16,581 nucleotides of DNA from an uncultured Bacilli bacterium (GTDB taxonomy: Bacteria > Bacillota_I > Bacilli_A > RF39 > UBA660). The stretch is from contig CANQIR010000004.1 of NCBI GenBank assembly GCA_947624095.1, positions 1-16,581 on the forward strand. Direction: 5' to 3'. Numbering within the stretch: position 1 is the stretch's first letter; the number at the start of each line of letters is the position of its first letter. Under the pieces are notes generated by a model that was not told where the DNA came from, searched no databases, and was given only the letters and a program-made list of their open reading frames with translations. This document shows positions 3,131 through 15,691 of the stretch, in pieces. The position numbers were made by a program, and so were the translations under genes.

Positions 3131-4105
3131 TCAATTTTGATAATTTATTTGTTGACCAGTTATTAGTGGATAGTTAACTAAATCTTGACTATCTAAATCA
3201 ACTTTATGCATATCAACACAAGTAATTTGACTATTTTCGTAAGTCGTATAATAGTATAAACCTTTATCTTGGTTACAACATGAACTATAGATAGTTATCT
3301 CATATTGACCTTCGCCCATATGGACTAGTCCTCTTTGTTGATAAACAGAACCTAGAATATGGAAGAACTGACTGATACTTGATGATTCATCTTCATTAGC
3401 TAAGGAATTCATTTTAGTAAATGAGGCTTTGACAAAACGTGAAGCACTAGATAAATCACCAGGAAGACCAAGACCACCCATTCCTCTACTATAATTAGTT
3501 AAATTTAATTTATGGGAAAAAGTATTGATTGGTTGTTCGGTAGATAAGTGTGAGTAATTATTTAAATTAAATAATTGCATATCAAATGATGGATTATTGG
3601 TTAGAATTCCGACTGGATTATCATATATTTTTAAACCTTCTTTAACAGATTCAACGGTAATTGATGATTCTTTATCAGCAATAATCCAATGTAAGGGAGA
3701 AGCTGGGAGTTTATCACTAAAGTTAATATTAGCTAAATTCATTTTATTAAGTAGGTCTTTAGCTTCACTAACAGTAGCACATTGGCTAAGTATCCAAGGA
3801 ATAAATTCAAAAGGTGCAATGTTGTCTTTGCCTTCTGCTATATCGTGGTAGTAAGCATTACCTGGGAAATTAAGTCCGGCCATTCCTAAACCTTTTTCAT
3901 TAATGGCATCATAATATAGGGGATAATTATCAGCAACGTAAGCCATACCAATTAAGGCATAATGAGAAGTAATGCTGCTTACTTGGCGAAAATTAAAAGG
4001 ATAGTTTCGTGGTGTAATAGTTACTGTTTCGTGATAAGAGTATTCTAAGTCTAAGTTACGACCAAAATAATGGTCTTTAGTTTGATATGTTGCAGCTGTA
4101 CACAT
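3131..4105 (-). CDS. bsh: Choloylglycine (bile salt) hydrolase
   Basis: Ntn-hydrolase of peptidase family C59, 324 residues, almost the same length as characterised Clostridium and Lactobacillus bile salt hydrolases. It would cleave the amide bond of glycine- or taurine-conjugated bile acids. The catalytic set is present: Cys2 (nucleophile once Met1 is removed), Arg16 and Asp19 in FGRNLDLEYSY, Asn79 in AGLNFPG, Asn170 in ILTNNPSFD, and Arg223 in SASRFV. Asn79, where penicillin V acylases usually carry Tyr, favours bile salts over penicillin V. There is no signal peptide, as expected for an intracellular enzyme. AGAAGG precedes the ATG. It is the first gene of an operon with the flavin reductase. 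It ends in TGA, which argues that UGA is a stop here. The function implies life in a bile-exposed gut. Confidence 0.93.
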   Translation of the reverse strand: MCTAATYQTKDHYFGRNLDLEYSYHETVTITPRNYPFNFRQVSSITSHYALIGMAYVADNYPLYYDAINEKGLGMAGLNFPGNAYYHDIAEGKDNIAPFEFIPWILSQCATVSEAKDLLNKMNLANINFSDKLPASPLHWIIADKESSITVESVKEGLKIYDNPVGILTNNPSFDMQLFNLNNYSHLSTEQPINTFSHKLNLTNYSRGMGGLGLPGDLSSASRFVKASFTKMNSLANEDESSSISQFFHILGSVYQQRGLVHMGEGQYEITIYSSCCNQDKGLYYYTTYENSQITCVDMHKVDLDSQDLVNYPLITGQQINYQN

Positions 4106-9945: not shown

Positions 9946-9969
9946 AAAAAAAGCAAAGCAGAACTTTGC
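9946..9969 (-). terminator. Terminator of the dockerin protease and cohesin operon
   Basis: Minus-strand GCAAAG, loop TTCTG, CTTTGC, followed by TTTTTTTATT. It separates the operon from cotE. Confidence 0.88.
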
Positions 9970-10000: not shown

Positions 10001-12223
10001 TTACATTATTAAAGTTTCATTTTCTTCTGATTTGGTTTGTTGATTCTGAGGAGTCGATGTTGGTCCCTGGTTATTTGAAGAATTAGTGCTATTTAAATTT
10101 AGGATAGGTGCTGTTGGAGTAGCAGATTGGTTAGATACTGGCGGTGTTAGACCACTACCAGGATTACGAATTTGATTAGTTGTTCCTTGGGGTTTAGTAC
10201 TTCCTAAATCTAAAGATCCTGGACGACCAATATTTAAATTATTACTGGCATTATTAAGATTATTATTTCTAGTAATAACACTGGATGATTTATTTGGTGA
10301 ACTTGACTTTGTTTTGGGATTAGTAAATATGCCCTTTGCCTTAATGAAGACAACGGCAGTTGTTAATAAGATACCTACTAATAGGCCAATAATGAATGAT
10401 AAAATACTAAATGAACTCTTAGACTTTTCTTTTTGACTTGTTGGAGTTACAGGTGATGATTCATTTGTTAGAGCATATCTAGTAGCACCATTAGTTGTAA
10501 ATGAGATATAGCCATTATTATTAGCAATTGTTTCTGATAAAAGAGTTAAATTACTATCTGTTTCGCTATAAGTATAAATACCTAATCCTTCTGTATTAAA
10601 ATCACCTAAATAGTAAGTTACAATGATACCAGCTGGTAAAGTAGTAGCTAAAGTGACTGGGGAGCTGGTATTAATTAGAATATTTAAATCTAAGTCATTA
10701 ACTTTACTTACATTACTATCAATCACAAAACTATATAACAAGCCTTTATAACTATTGACTATGTTTACATATAATTTACCATTAACTATTTTATTTAGAA
10801 TGTCTTTGGGAATAATTTTATCAGCATCACTATTTAACTCCAAGATTAAATCATTTTTAATATTATTATCATTTATTTTATCAATAGAATCAACTTTTGG
10901 AGCATTAATGGTTTTGTTAACTAAGATAAAGTATTCTCTTTCTAATTCACCATCACGGACAGTAATAATAATCTTATTTATACCTAATGATAAACTAGTA
11001 GCATTATCAATAGAAACAGTTGCGGAAGTACTTTTAGTTTCAGTTTTAATTTCTAGGTTATTTACTGTACTATCGACACCAAATAAATAAGTTGAACTGC
11101 CATCGAGAACTATCTCAATATTATTAATAATTAATCTTGTTAGTTCATCACTTGGGTCAGTAATGGCTCCTCTATTGGTAAAGCGAATTAAATATTCGGT
11201 ACTTGAACCATTTTCAGCAGTTACGGTGATGGTATGGACTTTTTTATCGTTACCAATATTTATTAAACCGGTACCGGTTATTTTAGCTTTACTATCATTA
11301 GCTTCAGCTTTTATATTTAGAGTAGTTAAATTTTCGGGTAATTCAATATCATAAATAAATTTATCGCTAGAAAAATCAATATCTACCCCTTCGATAGTTA
11401 AACTTTTTAATTTATTATCAGATGAACGATTGTCTACTCTTTTTACTTTAATAGTATAATTATTTTTGGTTTTGCCATCTTCAGCAGTTACGGTGATAGT
11501 TATTGTGTTATCACCAATTTTTAAGGATTTAGTACCTGCACCAGTAATTGTAGCACCAGTTGATGCTGTTGCTCTAATGGTTATTGAACTTAATTCTGTA
11601 TCTGGTAAGGTATATGATTTAGTACTTGATGAAAAACTTGGATTTAAAGCTAAACCGGTAACTGATAAGGATTTAAGTAAGGCTTCATTACTCTTTGGAG
11701 TAGAAGGATTGCTTGGATTTGATGGATTTGATGGATTACTTGGAGTTTGAGCTTTAGTAAAACTAACTGAGGTACCTTGGGTAGTACCGGAAATATCGCC
11801 ACCGTTAGCATCAGCATAGCCAGAGCCTTCGATGTTAAAGTTTGCTGTCCCACTTTCAACGTTACTTGTAAATGTTATGGTAATTACTGTTCCATTATTA
11901 ATAGATGTACTAGGACCACCACCGGTATTATCCATATAAGATATTTTGATAGTTCCGGGGCTTTGAAGATTAACAAACATATCTGAGCTTTTATTACTAC
12001 TCCATTTGTTATTATAAGAAACTTTTGTAGTATCAAAGGTTATAACATAATCTGCAGAAGAAAGGTAATTATTCAAACCAGAAACTACAATAGACACTGT
12101 AAATTCTTTTCCTTTCTCGACGCTAGATGATGATGGAGTTAATTTTGATACTAGGGCATTAGGCGTCAATAATACGATGAACATTAAACTCATAGTAAAT
12201 ATTAAATATTTTATTTTTTTCAT
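10001..12223 (-). CDS. Membrane-anchored cohesin-domain protein with cadherin-like beta-sandwich repeats
   Basis: A surface protein of 740 residues. Signal peptide: 1-24. Residues 25-157 form a cohesin-like beta sandwich: KLTPSSSSVEKGKEFTVSI, a YVITFDTTKVSY strand pair, ISYMD, INNGTVITITF and a closing VSFTKA strand. A repeated Pro-Ser-Asn linker lies at 160-176. Three cadherin-like beta-sandwich domains (Pfam PF12733 type) follow at about 178-263, 270-350 and 357-437, each with a Y-x-I/L strand and an ITVTAEDG-like end. Further beta structure runs to about 590. One membrane helix lies at 605-628, and a 110-residue Asn/Ser/Pro/Gln-rich tail should be cytoplasmic. There is no LPXTG or S-layer motif. 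It starts 20 bases after the dockerin protease gene, with GGGTGA before the ATG. The likely role is to hold dockerin-bearing proteins at the surface. The cohesin call is by pattern, not by search. Confidence 0.85.
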   Translation of the reverse strand: MKKIKYLIFTMSLMFIVLLTPNALVSKLTPSSSSVEKGKEFTVSIVVSGLNNYLSSADYVITFDTTKVSYNNKWSSNKSSDMFVNLQSPGTIKISYMDNTGGGPSTSINNGTVITITFTSNVESGTANFNIEGSGYADANGGDISGTTQGTSVSFTKAQTPSNPSNPSNPSNPSTPKSNEALLKSLSVTGLALNPSFSSSTKSYTLPDTELSSITIRATASTGATITGAGTKSLKIGDNTITITVTAEDGKTKNNYTIKVKRVDNRSSDNKLKSLTIEGVDIDFSSDKFIYDIELPENLTTLNIKAEANDSKAKITGTGLINIGNDKKVHTITVTAENGSSTEYLIRFTNRGAITDPSDELTRLIINNIEIVLDGSSTYLFGVDSTVNNLEIKTETKSTSATVSIDNATSLSLGINKIIITVRDGELEREYFILVNKTINAPKVDSIDKINDNNIKNDLILELNSDADKIIPKDILNKIVNGKLYVNIVNSYKGLLYSFVIDSNVSKVNDLDLNILINTSSPVTLATTLPAGIIVTYYLGDFNTEGLGIYTYSETDSNLTLLSETIANNNGYISFTTNGATRYALTNESSPVTPTSQKEKSKSSFSILSFIIGLLVGILLTTAVVFIKAKGIFTNPKTKSSSPNKSSSVITRNNNLNNASNNLNIGRPGSLDLGSTKPQGTTNQIRNPGSGLTPPVSNQSATPTAPILNLNSTNSSNNQGPTSTPQNQQTKSEENETLIM
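11696..11746 (-). repeat. Short tandem repeat encoding a Pro-Ser-Asn linker
   Basis: Nine-base units of the type AATCCATCA encode (Pro-Ser-Asn) about four times, flanked by Thr-Pro. This is the flexible linker between the cohesin-like domain and the first cadherin-like domain. Copy number could vary between strains without a frameshift. Confidence 0.8.
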
Positions 12224-12243
12224 TTTTTCACCCGCTTTTTATT

Positions 12244-15200
12244 TTAATTAAGTGTTGATGATAAGCCAACTACGTATCTTCTAATTTTGAGAGCATCATT
12301 ACTGCCTAGGGAGTTATCACCGGAAATATCGCCAGCCATTTGATAAACTTTTTCTAAAGTGCTAAGTCCTACTACGTGGCGTCTAATAAGCAGTGCATCG
12401 TTACTACCAACTGTGCCATCCCCATTAGTATCACCTTTGATAATTAAGGTATATTTTTGAGTACCACTAGAAGTTTTGTGTTCGAGAGTCATACCAGTAC
12501 CGATATAACCAGAAGTAACTGGATTTGTACCTTTATAGATTGTAACTGTTTCACCAGAAGTAATATCCAAGGAATTATAGAATTTTTGATAATCGGTTTT
12601 TTCGGTAATTCCTTTTAGGTAACCATCTTCTTGGGTATAGTTTGTGTAAGTAAATAAGTCATCAGTTACGGTAACAGTAAATGTTGTACTAACATTAGAA
12701 CCATCCGTACTTGTTACGGTTATTTTAGTAGAACCAACAGCATGAGTTTTTAAAGTATTTCCTTCTATTGTAGCGATGGTATCATTTTCAATTGTGTATT
12801 TTAAGACTTTATTATAGGCATTGGTTGGGGTAATAACTGGATTTAAATCGATTGTCATATTATTACGGGTACGGATATCATTGATAGAAATATTAGTTAT
12901 TTCACTAGTATTGAATACTTCAAATTCATAAGTTGCCGTTAGAGTTTTAGCGTGACCGCCACTTACTGTTACTTTATATACCCCTTCTTTGGCTTTGCCA
13001 TCATGATTTATAGTAATTGTTGCACTATCACCCGTTAATTGATCGCCACCACTTATAGTAAAGTAATCAACTGGGCTATCTGAGGAATCAGTAATTTTGG
13101 TTGTTAAATTGTCAATATCTTGAATAGTGAATTTTAAGGTAATTGTACCTTCGTTATTAATAAATAATTGAGAGGTATCTTTGGGATACGTACCAGTTAT
13201 TTTGGAAGTTGATAATTTTAATTTAGGATCTTCAACGATGATACTTGTTTTAGCAGTAGCTTCTGGGTTATCTTGACTAGTTACGGTAATATCTGCTTTG
13301 CCGCGGCCTCTAGTTGTTAACGTACCATCTTGTTTAATAGTAGCTACTGTTCCGGGAGAGGTTTGCCATTTCACGGCTTTGTTGGTAGCATTTGGTGGAT
13401 TAACCGTTGCTTCTAAAGTATAAATATGATTATTTAGAAGATATTGGTCTATAGGAGTTAAAGTTATTGATTCTACTTCGACATATTCGATAATTTCAAA
13501 AGTTACAGTATCTTGATTACCATTTTCACCAGTAATTGTTACAGTATACTTACCAAATTTACTATCTTTAGGAATTTTTATAGTAATAGTTGCTTGATTA
13601 TTGTTAACTGTATTACCACTAATGGTAGCATTTTCTAGTTTTGAAGTTGATTCATCAACAATTTCTACTGTAAGATTTGCATTATTTTGATAACCAATAG
13701 CTAATACAGGAATAGTTATAGCGTTTTCATCTTTATCATACATTGTGGAAGAACCTGGGTTAACGTCACCAGCAATTATTTCGTATTGACTATAGAGATG
13801 GAATGGTACTTCTTTAGTTATTTCACCAAAAGTTACAACTATGCGATAATCGCCTTGAGGAGCGGTATGACCACTAGTATTTTGGATAACAATGGTTGCT
13901 TGATTAGTTTGCGTTTGCCCGCTTATTGAAAAATTAGTAGTAACATCTTCATTATTGCTATTAAAGATTTTAATAGTTGCGGCGGAAGCTAAAACAGTTT
14001 TACTATCAAATGATAAGCTTAGGTTAAAATCACCTGAATAGTATGGATATTCTGGATTTTGGGTAAGTGGTCCTAAAGTAAAGTTATATTGAATTTTATC
14101 GGTACTAGCTTTAATACTAGCGTATGGCTTATAAGTGGTATCTTCAGATAGGTCTTCCCATGGGCCATCCATACTTCGACTGACATAACTTTGACCAGCG
14201 GTGGTATTTCCAAAATCAAATAAACTATCTTGAGAAATATATAGTTGTGTACCTATAGGATAATCGCCATCAGAACTTTGGTATTTATAAGCAATCATAA
14301 TGACAAATTTTTGATTTTCAAGAAGATAAGGACTTGATAGTTTAAAAGTGTGATAGCCGTCGTAATTGGCAACGCTTGTACCTAAATGAATAAATTTAGA
14401 TTTATCTAATTTATCATCTACTGGATTTAAGTAAACATCATATACTACACCACTTTTAGTAGCAATAGTTACTTCTTTTAATAATTCTTGTTCGGATTCT
14501 AAAGTGAAAACATTGGCAGCATAGTTTGTTTCAGTATTATAACCATAGTAGCCATTAAATCCTAAAGTATCATAAGCATATATTTTTTCTTCAACATCCG
14601 TAGCGAGGTGGTCAACATCAGTTGCCCCACTAGGAGATGAGCAAATCCAGTAATCTTCATAAGAAACATAGAAATAACCAGCTTTACCATAAGCCCAGTC
14701 ACTACCATAAGAATTTTGGACTATCCAAGCGCCATTAGATTGAGGTTGGTTAGTTGAGGAAAAATAATTTTTATTATAAGTGTCATCCCAACCGATGATA
14801 GTTACTCCATGATTAACTGTATGAAAGGTGTTAGATTTATCATATTTATAATATAGTGATGCATTTTCTTTCTTGTAATAAGCTGATTCAGTTGTCATAT
14901 AAATGTTGGCAGCCATTGAACCGTATTTCGTAATATGTTCTTTAATAACATTTTTAATACTAGCTGTACAGCCACCAACTGTGCCGCTAACAACTTCGTA
15001 GCCATTAACATCAACTGTTCTTTTGGTAGTCGGTAAATCTTTTTTATTAATTGGATTTTCATCATTTTGAAACGGCATAGTAGATTCTTCGACTGGTCCT
15101 TTACCATTAATAAGATAATTGCTGGCGATATAACCATTACCACCGGTACCTACTTGGCGATTATAGTTATTTGCATCGGTACCGTCTTGGAAATAACGGG

Positions 15201-15642
15201 TGGTTGAATATTCCATATGACGAGTTGAAAAATTATAAACTGGTCCATTATTTTTAATAATGGCAGTTTCTAGAGTAGTTAAAGCAGAAAAGGCCCAGCA
15301 GCCACCAGTATTTTGTTGATTCTTGATAGGACGAAGGTAGTTTTGGGTAGTTCTTGGATCAAAAGTAGCTGGGTACTGGCCTTTGGCAGAATCATTAAAA
15401 CTAAAGGTTTTATATTCTTTGTAATATGGTTCTGGTGTACTTACATCAATTAAAGTACTTTTACAAATATTAGGCATTGGAACGGTCTTTTTTTCTTCTT
15501 CAGATAACTTTTGCCATTCAATAAATTCATCAGAAAATGTACACGTACTTGGCGAGATGGCCCTAGGTCTAAGACAAGTTGTGATAAGCATAGCAAAAAT
15601 AATAAAATTAAAAGTAAATATTTTTTTTAATGTCTCTTTCAT
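12244..15642 (-). CDS. Secreted papain-like cysteine protease with lectin-like, Ig-like and C-terminal dockerin domains
   Basis: A large extracellular protein of 1132 residues. Signal peptide: about 1-30. A C1A (papain) peptidase domain at about 87-340 has all catalytic residues: Gln109 in IKNQQN, Cys115 in GGCWAFS, His278 in VNHGVTIIGW, and Asn310 in VQNSYGSDW. A lectin-like domain of the kind found next to such peptidases follows at about 355-512. Beta-sandwich domains fill 520-1000, including two Big2-type Ig domains near 722-802 and 913-994. The C-terminus is a type I-like dockerin with two calcium loops: D1071, N1073, D1075, D1082 in GDTNGDGTVGSND, and D1105, S1107, D1109, D1116 in GDISGDNSLGSND. 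Start: ATG at 15642; the GTG nine bases upstream has no ribosome binding site. It is the first gene of an operon with the cohesin protein, its probable partner. Confidence 0.93.
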   Translation of the reverse strand: MKETLKKIFTFNFIIFAMLITTCLRPRAISPSTCTFSDEFIEWQKLSEEEKKTVPMPNICKSTLIDVSTPEPYYKEYKTFSFNDSAKGQYPATFDPRTTQNYLRPIKNQQNTGGCWAFSALTTLETAIIKNNGPVYNFSTRHMEYSTTRYFQDGTDANNYNRQVGTGGNGYIASNYLINGKGPVEESTMPFQNDENPINKKDLPTTKRTVDVNGYEVVSGTVGGCTASIKNVIKEHITKYGSMAANIYMTTESAYYKKENASLYYKYDKSNTFHTVNHGVTIIGWDDTYNKNYFSSTNQPQSNGAWIVQNSYGSDWAYGKAGYFYVSYEDYWICSSPSGATDVDHLATDVEEKIYAYDTLGFNGYYGYNTETNYAANVFTLESEQELLKEVTIATKSGVVYDVYLNPVDDKLDKSKFIHLGTSVANYDGYHTFKLSSPYLLENQKFVIMIAYKYQSSDGDYPIGTQLYISQDSLFDFGNTTAGQSYVSRSMDGPWEDLSEDTTYKPYASIKASTDKIQYNFTLGPLTQNPEYPYYSGDFNLSLSFDSKTVLASAATIKIFNSNNEDVTTNFSISGQTQTNQATIVIQNTSGHTAPQGDYRIVVTFGEITKEVPFHLYSQYEIIAGDVNPGSSTMYDKDENAITIPVLAIGYQNNANLTVEIVDESTSKLENATISGNTVNNNQATITIKIPKDSKFGKYTVTITGENGNQDTVTFEIIEYVEVESITLTPIDQYLLNNHIYTLEATVNPPNATNKAVKWQTSPGTVATIKQDGTLTTRGRGKADITVTSQDNPEATAKTSIIVEDPKLKLSTSKITGTYPKDTSQLFINNEGTITLKFTIQDIDNLTTKITDSSDSPVDYFTISGGDQLTGDSATITINHDGKAKEGVYKVTVSGGHAKTLTATYEFEVFNTSEITNISINDIRTRNNMTIDLNPVITPTNAYNKVLKYTIENDTIATIEGNTLKTHAVGSTKITVTSTDGSNVSTTFTVTVTDDLFTYTNYTQEDGYLKGITEKTDYQKFYNSLDITSGETVTIYKGTNPVTSGYIGTGMTLEHKTSSGTQKYTLIIKGDTNGDGTVGSNDALLIRRHVVGLSTLEKVYQMAGDISGDNSLGSNDALKIRRYVVGLSSTLN
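12262..12432 (-). other. Dockerin domain of the papain-like protease
   Basis: Two near-identical segments of about 24 residues, each a calcium loop followed by a helix: SNDALLIRRHVVGL and SNDALKIRRYVVGL. The duplicated symmetry is typical of dockerins and allows binding in two orientations. Positions 10 and 11 of both loops are Gly-Ser, the usual site of cohesin specificity. The second loop has Ser1107 and Asn1110 in place of the usual Asn and Gly, so it may bind calcium more weakly. Confidence 0.88.
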
Positions 15643-15662: not shown

Positions 15663-15691
15663 AGTATATACTATTTTTAAATTTTTAGCAA
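15663..15691 (-). promoter_or_regulatory. Promoter of the dockerin protease and cohesin operon
   Basis: Minus strand: -35 TTGCTA (15691-15686), 17-base spacer, -10 TATACT (15668-15663). The -10 lies within the perfect 12-base palindrome TAGTATATACTA (15662-15673), a possible operator. The sigma-A-like form suggests expression in growing cells and not only in sporulation. Confidence 0.65.

Follow-up and report, generated by a model that had tools for sequence, protein, structure and literature searches.

A two-gene locus proposed to tether a secreted Cwp84-like protease to the membrane through a cohesin-dockerin pair

Why would a papain-like protease end in a dockerin, beside a gene for a cohesin-bearing membrane protein, in a region where no glycoside hydrolase was found? 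The locus lies on a stretch of 16,581 nucleotides (the window). An earlier, sequence-only reading suggested a minimal surface complex that anchors the protease. The cohesin fold, the dockerin, the membrane topology and a dedicated pairing of the two proteins are indirectly supported by our analysis; the accompanying idea that the anchor is a general socket is not supported for this genome. We favor a dedicated, non-cellulosomal membrane tether for a secreted Cwp84-like protease, with a probability of about 0.8.

The protease and its neighbor

Both open reading frames are where the earlier reading placed them. The features, all on the minus strand, are as follows.

12244..15642, minus: dockerin-bearing C1A protease, secreted, 1132 aa when started at the ATG (ORF and Pfam)
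15550..15642, minus: putative signal peptide, about residues 1-31 (hydrophobic N terminus, by eye from the sequence)
14653..15372, minus: papain-like Peptidase_C1 domain (Pfam, 76 bits), with Q109, C115, H278 and N310 in ATG numbering
14101..14583, minus: Lectin_like domain, as in Cwp84 (PF18560, 72 bits)
13252..13476, minus: Ig-like domain of the bacterial Big_2 type, the better of two stretches (Pfam)
12271..12438, minus: type I dockerin, two repeats (PF00404, 36 bits on DNA, 30.6 in protein)
10001..12223, minus: membrane anchor protein, 740 aa (ORF and Pfam)
11777..12139, minus: cohesin domain, type I-like (PF00963)
11438..11677, minus: spacer with a Cadherin-like beta-sandwich, the better of two such stretches (PF12733, 51 bits)
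10352..10420, minus: C-terminal membrane helix, about residues 602-624 (hydropathy)
10004..10351, minus: Ser/Asn/Pro-rich tail of ~115 residues, probably cytoplasmic, as K residues directly past the helix suggest
15663..15691, minus: promoter-like site of sigma-70 type ahead of the two genes (TTGCTA-17-TATACT, 9/12, consensus match only)
9953..9969, minus: intrinsic-terminator-like hairpin closing the two-gene unit (7 pairs, then T7)

The best protease start is the ATG at 15642, which has a purine-rich site ahead of it, and the anchor gene starts 20 bases past the protease stop codon. Promoter-like sites (46 found versus 38.7 expected) and terminator-like hairpins (4 versus 3.0) barely exceed chance in the region, so we only infer that the two genes form one transcript. 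A profile search of 17 window proteins found no glycoside hydrolase, and a CotE spore-coat gene (Pfam) adjoins the pair just downstream.

The protease scores above the curated cut-off for Peptidase_C1, and its catalytic set, the Gln, Cys, His and Asn of the C1A papain family, is invariant in all six aligned sequences, the window's included. The closest solved relatives of this domain (4ci7 and 4d59; E = 3e-26) are of Clostridioides difficile Cwp84, likewise a surface protease with a C1A and a lectin-like domain, and the order here, C1A then lectin-like, is that of Cwp84. Wall-binding repeats retain Cwp84 on the cell; the dockerin would take that role here, and no CWB2 repeats occur among the 15 Pfam matches of the protease at E values up to 1. 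In sections of the Cwp84 study, the catalytic residues are Gln110, Cys116, His262 and Asn287 (PMC4089489), corresponding in order and role to the four listed above. The lectin-like domain is an addition to the earlier reading; it and both Big_2 stretches lie above Pfam curated cut-offs. At the C terminus, Dockerin_1 exceeds its cut-off of 22.9 bits, solved dockerins match at E = 1e-9, and both calcium loops have D at positions 1, 5 and 12 and N or S at position 3. The domain thus has the two F-hand repeats and calcium-loop residues of a type I dockerin, and by eye the repeats share S, N, A, L, R, R at the six positions scored for recognition.

In the anchor, residues 29-149 match the Pfam cohesin profile at 41.3 bits (cut-off, 24.1), and structural matches that include 3ul4 and 4dh2 support the cohesin jelly-roll fold. 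The beta-sandwich repeats noticed earlier are two Cadherin-like stretches above the curated cut-off, and the membrane helix is a hydrophobic stretch. Unlike a sortase-anchored scaffoldin, the anchor has no LPxTG ahead of the helix. Sortases are nevertheless present in 43 of 60 genomes searched, including this one (3 hits), which rules out the tether as a replacement for sortase anchoring.

Pairing within the genome and among relatives

A profile search of the DNA of the host genome, which is 77% complete, found three dockerins, each with a linked cohesin-like domain of its own; besides the window protease, the cargos are a glucosaminidase and an M26-like metalloprotease. The two further units add to the earlier reading. 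Detection of their cohesins varied: Pfam Cohesin does not match the C35 partner, which came up only in a search with an alignment that includes its close relatives, and the C28 cohesin passes on DNA and is absent from the protein scan. The three cohesin-like domains sit in three separate proteins. With these cargos, the system does not resemble a cellulosome, which combines a multi-cohesin scaffoldin with dockerin glycoside hydrolases for the plant cell wall, and a cellulosome fragment is not supported in this 77% complete genome, from which parts could be missed.

The sequence-only reading had spoken of scattered non-cellulosomal pairs, which understates what we see. Pairs of this kind occur repeatedly across the family and also in loci labelled Clostridia, and many gut bacteria have the two-gene layout with other enzymes and other recognition codes, so the locus is no isolated oddity. 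The commonest cargo is a SagB-like glucosaminidase, and the window pair is one paralogue. Carriers of the glucosaminidase module include Pseudoflavonifractor sp. An85 and An44 (loci L161 and L163), probably cultured isolates. Named relatives came from a scan with one peptide pattern, of which the best 80 of 583 were kept.

Among C1A genes, an anchor stands next door in 12 of 15 loci with a dockerin versus none of 8 without, which rules out chance adjacency; these counts were tallied by hand, include related genomes and are not independent. Loci at contig ends were excluded (L235 from the 15; L238 and L251 from the 8), and tandem genes counted as one locus (three in L254, two in L237). One of the 8 is L241, where the following gene lies 123 bases on and shows no helix in the 721 residues in view, which stop short of its end. 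The three dockerin loci lacking an anchor are in G010, G214 and G201, and in G021 six of seven non-glucosaminidase dockerin genes with the next ORF in view lack one. An anchor in relatives was called from a signal peptide and a helix; helix scores are weak in L092, L093 and L100, and only 4 of the 12 C1A anchors have a Pfam cohesin (the window, L093 and L248 in the protein scan, L092 in the DNA scan). For other cargos, the adjacency counts omit genes whose downstream ORF is absent or cut short (2 of 30 for the glucosaminidase, 4 of 30 for the remaining dockerin hits); long ORFs cut by the stretch end counted as anchors if they had a signal peptide (6 of 74 and 1 of 15). The dockerin listing comprised 60 hits, exclusive of those inside very long M26-like proteins.

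Recognition residues and competing explanations

Co-variation between dockerin and anchor was computed on the sister glucosaminidase pairs rather than on the few C1A pairs. Of 92 starting pairs (same-family genes uncut at the 5' end, plus named loci inside set bounds on length and gap), 77 remained once repeats and anchors without a detectable cadherin start had been removed; 2924 of 2926 distances were used. The co-variation is specific to the cohesin and dockerin modules. Dockerin recognition positions known from the literature gave an r of 0.645, versus 0.374 for the remaining positions; random nine-column sets averaged 0.34, with a maximum of 0.57. A recognition set chosen from the same data gave 0.67, a circular value. 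On the cohesin side, the mapping gave partial support for the interface: strand 3 was highest on average, but the best single column fell in strand 7, which is not part of the known face, and no column of strand 5 was scorable (strand numbers are ours, from the secondary structure of the model). Conserved adjacency and co-variation in sister pairs indirectly support the view that the protease and anchor are a dedicated pair, and the sister pairs likewise lend indirect support to binding of a dockerin by the window cohesin.

On the domains, fold, operon-like layout, conserved pairing and dockerin-helix co-variation in sister pairs, all computed or observed, we build the following model. The upstream gene would yield the secreted protease, and the downstream gene a membrane protein of type I topology, with one cohesin facing outward and held away from the membrane on cadherin-like spacers. 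This cohesin would bind the dockerin of its own protease in either of two orientations, probably with the help of calcium; the protease would then stay at the cell surface because its dockerin is bound to a membrane-anchored cohesin. Its likeliest targets are envelope or surface proteins of the cell that makes it, a substrate class guessed from Cwp84. Two orientations are predicted because the recognition residues of the two dockerin repeats agree in 0.89 of cases versus 0.34 expected.

The earlier reading had other dockerin proteins compete for the single cohesin, making it a general socket for exchangeable display. One relative, G068, fits this: three tandem C1A-dockerin genes with similar dockerins precede one anchor, which they may share. 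Exchange is nonetheless unlikely here, as the genome yielded only two other dockerins, each with its own cohesin-like domain (a further one could be missed because the genome is 77% complete), and recognition residues differ by eye, A-R-R in the window pair versus L-Q-K in the C35 pair. Dockerin codes differ between modules within one genome more widely: all six genomes that have both types of pair show, by eye, dockerins that differ from each other at two or more of positions 15, 16, 19 and 20.

Still less likely, the cohesin might act as a sensor, reporting protease loading or envelope state through the cytoplasmic tail. Long tails do follow the helix both here and in the C35 partner, where the tail is KE-rich, but the two tails differ, a Pfam scan found no signalling domain in either protein, and some related anchors are almost tail-less. 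It is most improbable that dockerin and cohesin are generic secreted modules that do not interact and adjoin for another reason. Most C1A anchors of relatives do lack a Pfam cohesin, as that explanation would have it; against it stand the dependence of the anchor on the dockerin among C1A loci and the module-specific co-variation. Beyond the dedicated tether of this locus, there may be, at somewhat less than even odds, a lineage-wide addressing code, in which each of several envelope enzymes in a cell has a private, internally symmetric dockerin matched to a private membrane cohesin, so that enzymes reach their own anchors with no cross-talk; some members of the lineage would have a socket reduced to ~100 residues and unseen by the cohesin profile, with the dockerin recognition helix changed along with it.

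Relation to known systems

Among the literature titles and abstract openings listed, a scope that leaves out most subscription journals and all preprints, none describes a C1A protease or peptidoglycan hydrolase that bears a dockerin and is paired with a membrane anchor carrying a cohesin. Among the nearest designs are OlpA and OlpC of Clostridium thermocellum (3ul4 and 4dh2), surface proteins that likewise use one type I cohesin to recruit single enzymes. They accompany a full cellulosome; here, the anchor and cargo genes adjoin and the anchor has a membrane helix. According to sections of PMC5429695, the dockerins by which C. thermocellum brings single enzymes to its surface outside the cellulosome have a single binding mode, whereas the matching repeats here predict a dual mode and so bear on the claim that such dockerins bind one way only.

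A single cohesin with a C-terminal membrane helix, as in the window anchor, is also described for proteins of H. luporum, C. cibarium and Lachnoclostridium sp. MSJ-17 in sections of PMC11557425, which call the partners in the first two species unclear and mention no neighboring dockerin enzyme. These proteins are candidates for the same module, and our pairs point to where their partners may lie. Non-cellulosic cohesin-dockerin systems also include the toxin assembly of Clostridium perfringens. In the Limousia mucinolysome, which contains dockerin peptidases, many enzymes share scaffoldins, one of them LPxTG-anchored (sections of PMC12997984), whereas here there is mostly one cargo for each anchor. 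The cellulosomal dockerin protein reported in sections of PMC3573020, which has papain-like NlpC/P60 modules, is a different case.

If correct, the model offers a general, testable design in which roughly one-to-one cohesin-dockerin pairs hold envelope enzymes, such as the protease and the SagB-like glucosaminidase, on gut-bacterial membranes; a large natural stock of private pairs would also supply protein engineers with orthogonal connectors. For the sister cargo, the catalytic relative is Staphylococcus aureus SagB, which has its own membrane helix and a partner, SpdC; the glucosaminidase here would instead be membrane-held via dockerin and cohesin. It scores 65 bits against the NCBIfam SagB model, below the cut-off of 425, and matches 6u0o_B, presumably of the SagB complex, at E = 2e-35.

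The protease-anchor pair and its protease relatives

The window is one whole contig (C4) of a 927-kb assembly with 127 contigs and 77% completeness. Two of its minus-strand genes lie 20 bases apart, with a promoter-like site ahead of them and a terminator-like hairpin behind:

12244-15642, minus strand: protease gene; signal peptide, C1A protease, Lectin_like, Ig-like domains, C-terminal type I dockerin
10001-12223, minus strand: anchor gene; signal peptide, cohesin, cadherin-like sandwiches, C-terminal membrane helix, tail

The catalytic residues of the protease are invariant in all six aligned sequences, the window's own included. For the protease and lectin-like part, the nearest solved structures are 4ci7 and 4d59 (E 3e-26) of a C. 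difficile surface cysteine protease, which we take to be Cwp84. The Cwp84 structure is described in an excerpt of PMC4089489. The domains, fold, and layout of the pair are evident from these data. We infer that the window cohesin and dockerin bind each other in a calcium-dependent manner, and the topology of the complex and the substrate of the protease are likewise predictions; by analogy with Cwp84 and SagB, the most likely function would be envelope self-processing close to the membrane.

The gene order HIT, protease, anchor, cotE, S16, KH is the same in the window and in both congeners examined, with conservation of 46% for the protease and 47-60% for the anchor versus 76-91% for the neighbors. 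CotE is the only spore marker detected in the window. A choloylglycine (bile salt) hydrolase at 3131-4105 (502.6 bits; NCBIfam cut-off, 350) is a gut marker on the same contig.

An alignment of C1A-lectin-dockerin proteins is matched by 86 of 291 family genomes, many of these matches being confined to its last third, the dockerin part. Of the C1A loci seen in context, 15 have a dockerin and 8 do not; an anchor, defined by a signal peptide and a helix, comes next in 12 of the former and in none of the latter. Pfam cohesins are found in 4 of these 12 anchors (the window, L093, L248, and, by DNA search, L092), and most of the others have a Pfam cadherin-like domain above the cut-off. At locus L254 (G068:C11:12000-23500), a single anchor gene comes after three C1A-dockerin protease genes in tandem. 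Two of the dockerins are nearly identical and the third is similar to them; in the anchor, Pfam finds cadherin-like repeats and no cohesin. This locus may be a natural example of one socket serving several cargos. Dockerin annotation is present on 49 of the 120 protease relatives listed, out of 380 in a protein database (hand count), indicating that the protease-dockerin fusion is not rare.

Sister pairs in the same genome and in relatives

In this 77% complete genome, three dockerins and three cohesin-like domains were detected, arranged as three units:

C4: window pair, the first unit
C35 (L007): SH3-glucosaminidase-dockerin gene; 12 bases on, gene for a sandwich-cadherin-helix protein whose tail is KE-rich
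C28 (L006:2157-9392): single 2411-residue protein; N-terminal cohesin, hydrophobic segments, weak dockerin, M26 (IgA1-protease-type) metalloprotease

The C35 unit repeats the design of the window pair. Its partner domain (the cohesin-like domain of the anchor) has no Pfam Cohesin match in scans of genome DNA and protein and was detected via A4, an alignment that includes its close relatives; its orthologues in genomes G001 and G002 score ∼21-22 bits, slightly below the Pfam cut-off of 24.1. On C28, cargo and anchor look fused into one chain: the cohesin scores 34 bits in the DNA search and is absent from the protein scan listing, and the dockerin scores 27.7 bits on DNA and 20.8, below the cut-off, in protein. 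Open reading frames of 2406-3088 residues, identified by their cohesin, are present in several relatives. A tether standing in for an absent sortase was also considered; sortases are present in this genome, so this explanation is ruled out.

We class the sister cargo as a glucosaminidase from its relation to SagB (65 bits with the NCBIfam model, under its cut-off of 425) and its similarity to solved enzymes of this kind (6u0o_B, E 2e-35); of 25 family members, only 1 is recognized by the Glucosaminidase model of Pfam. Among 60 genomes, the window's own included, 23 have Pfam Cohesin and 36 have Dockerin (E 0.01 or better), and the window's family (37 genomes) holds 22 and 33 of these, respectively. 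The pairing is conserved: an anchor (signal peptide, single helix) comes next in 27 of the 28 glucosaminidase-dockerin genes (30 in total) with the next gene in view and in 15 of 26 other dockerin genes. With a stricter helix cut-off, 99 of 118 dockerin genes have an anchor next, compared with 11 of the 663 remaining genes of the regions examined, all from related genomes that are not independent. In a scan of named genomes with a glucosaminidase query, 76 of the best 80 of 583 loci have a dockerin, and 74 of these 76 have an anchor next, although 6 of the 74 anchor genes leave the contig ahead of the helix. Labels of loci with an anchor include Lachnospiraceae, Oscillospiraceae, and Pseudoflavonifractor sp. 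An85 and An44; the two without one, L167 and L178, are labeled Oscillospiraceae and Clostridia. Phylum-wide, the glucosaminidase alignment is matched by 25 of 392 genomes drawn (E 1e-30 or better), indicating that this type is concentrated in some families.

Other arrangements were also observed. Genome G021 has 11 dockerin hits (E 0.01 or better; loci L096, L097, L098, and L123), and by the criteria used here, an adjacent anchor is missing for 6 of 7 non-glucosaminidase dockerin genes with the next frame in view; this lineage may put dockerins to a different use. At a contig end, L111 (G019:C82:5000-9901) encodes in one frame a dockerin with a cohesin directly behind it, then a cadherin-like part and a membrane helix, apparently a natural dockerin-cohesin-anchor chain. 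L118 (G002), L119 (G022), and L120 (G009) encode ∼1.7-kaa proteins with an internal dockerin-like stretch, the G002 protein also having a HEIGH motif; shortly downstream lies a gene for a ∼300-residue signal-peptide protein, with a C-terminal helix in both complete cases. These loci are possibly a further version of the module.

Co-variation of dockerin and partner domain

For 77 glucosaminidase pairs, we compared distances of the catalytic region, dockerin, partner domain, and next anchor part. Co-variation in these sister pairs is specific to the module: corrected for the other two parts, which serve as a proxy for relatedness that the permutations ignore, the correlation of dockerin with partner domain is 0.58, a value reached in 0 of 1000 permutations. 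The corresponding values are -0.05 for dockerin and the anchor rest and 0.20 for the catalytic region and partner domain. In a column-wise scan, the signal falls on dockerin positions 15, 16, 19, and 20 and 49, 50, 53, and 54, a spacing consistent with one helix face per repeat, and the calcium ligands and linker give none. The recognition positions known from the literature give 0.645, and the remaining dockerin positions give 0.374; the 0.67 of a set picked from the scan itself is circular. In the subset of 54 pairs whose dockerin has L, I, M, F, or V at position 15, most of them involving classic cohesins, the correlation is 0.51. Where one genome has both pair types, the two dockerins differ at at least two of positions 15, 16, 19, and 20 (six of six genomes, by eye).

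DYxxxKN-type dockerins go with a short partner domain of ∼100 residues:

L137:6967-7278, L136:6955-7266, and 10 more loci: short partner domain (alignment A6; nine with such dockerins, three related)

Its structure model is confident (pLDDT, 93.7; pTM, 0.82). Profile comparison relates it to classic cohesins (probability, 97.3); Cohesin is not among the Pfam families listed (25 of 26) for the 12 A6 members, and fold searches did not single out cohesins. It may be a cohesin in reduced form or else an Ig-like domain that took its place as dockerin receptor.

Symmetry of the dockerin repeats

At six scored recognition positions, the two repeats of a dockerin agree in a fraction of 0.89 versus 0.34 expected from shuffling; at other positions, agreement is 0.60 versus 0.46. 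Repeats agree at all of positions 15, 16, 19, and 20 in 68 of 77 dockerins and at all six scored positions in 44 of 77, and agreement is likewise raised at positions 11, 17, and 22. The window dockerin agrees at six of six (by eye), and a dual orientation is predicted for its binding as well. PMC5429695 reports a single binding mode for the non-cellulosomal dockerins through which individual enzymes are recruited to the C. thermocellum surface, and for the C. perfringens pair. From their repeat symmetry, the dockerins of the present module would instead be expected to bind in a dual mode.
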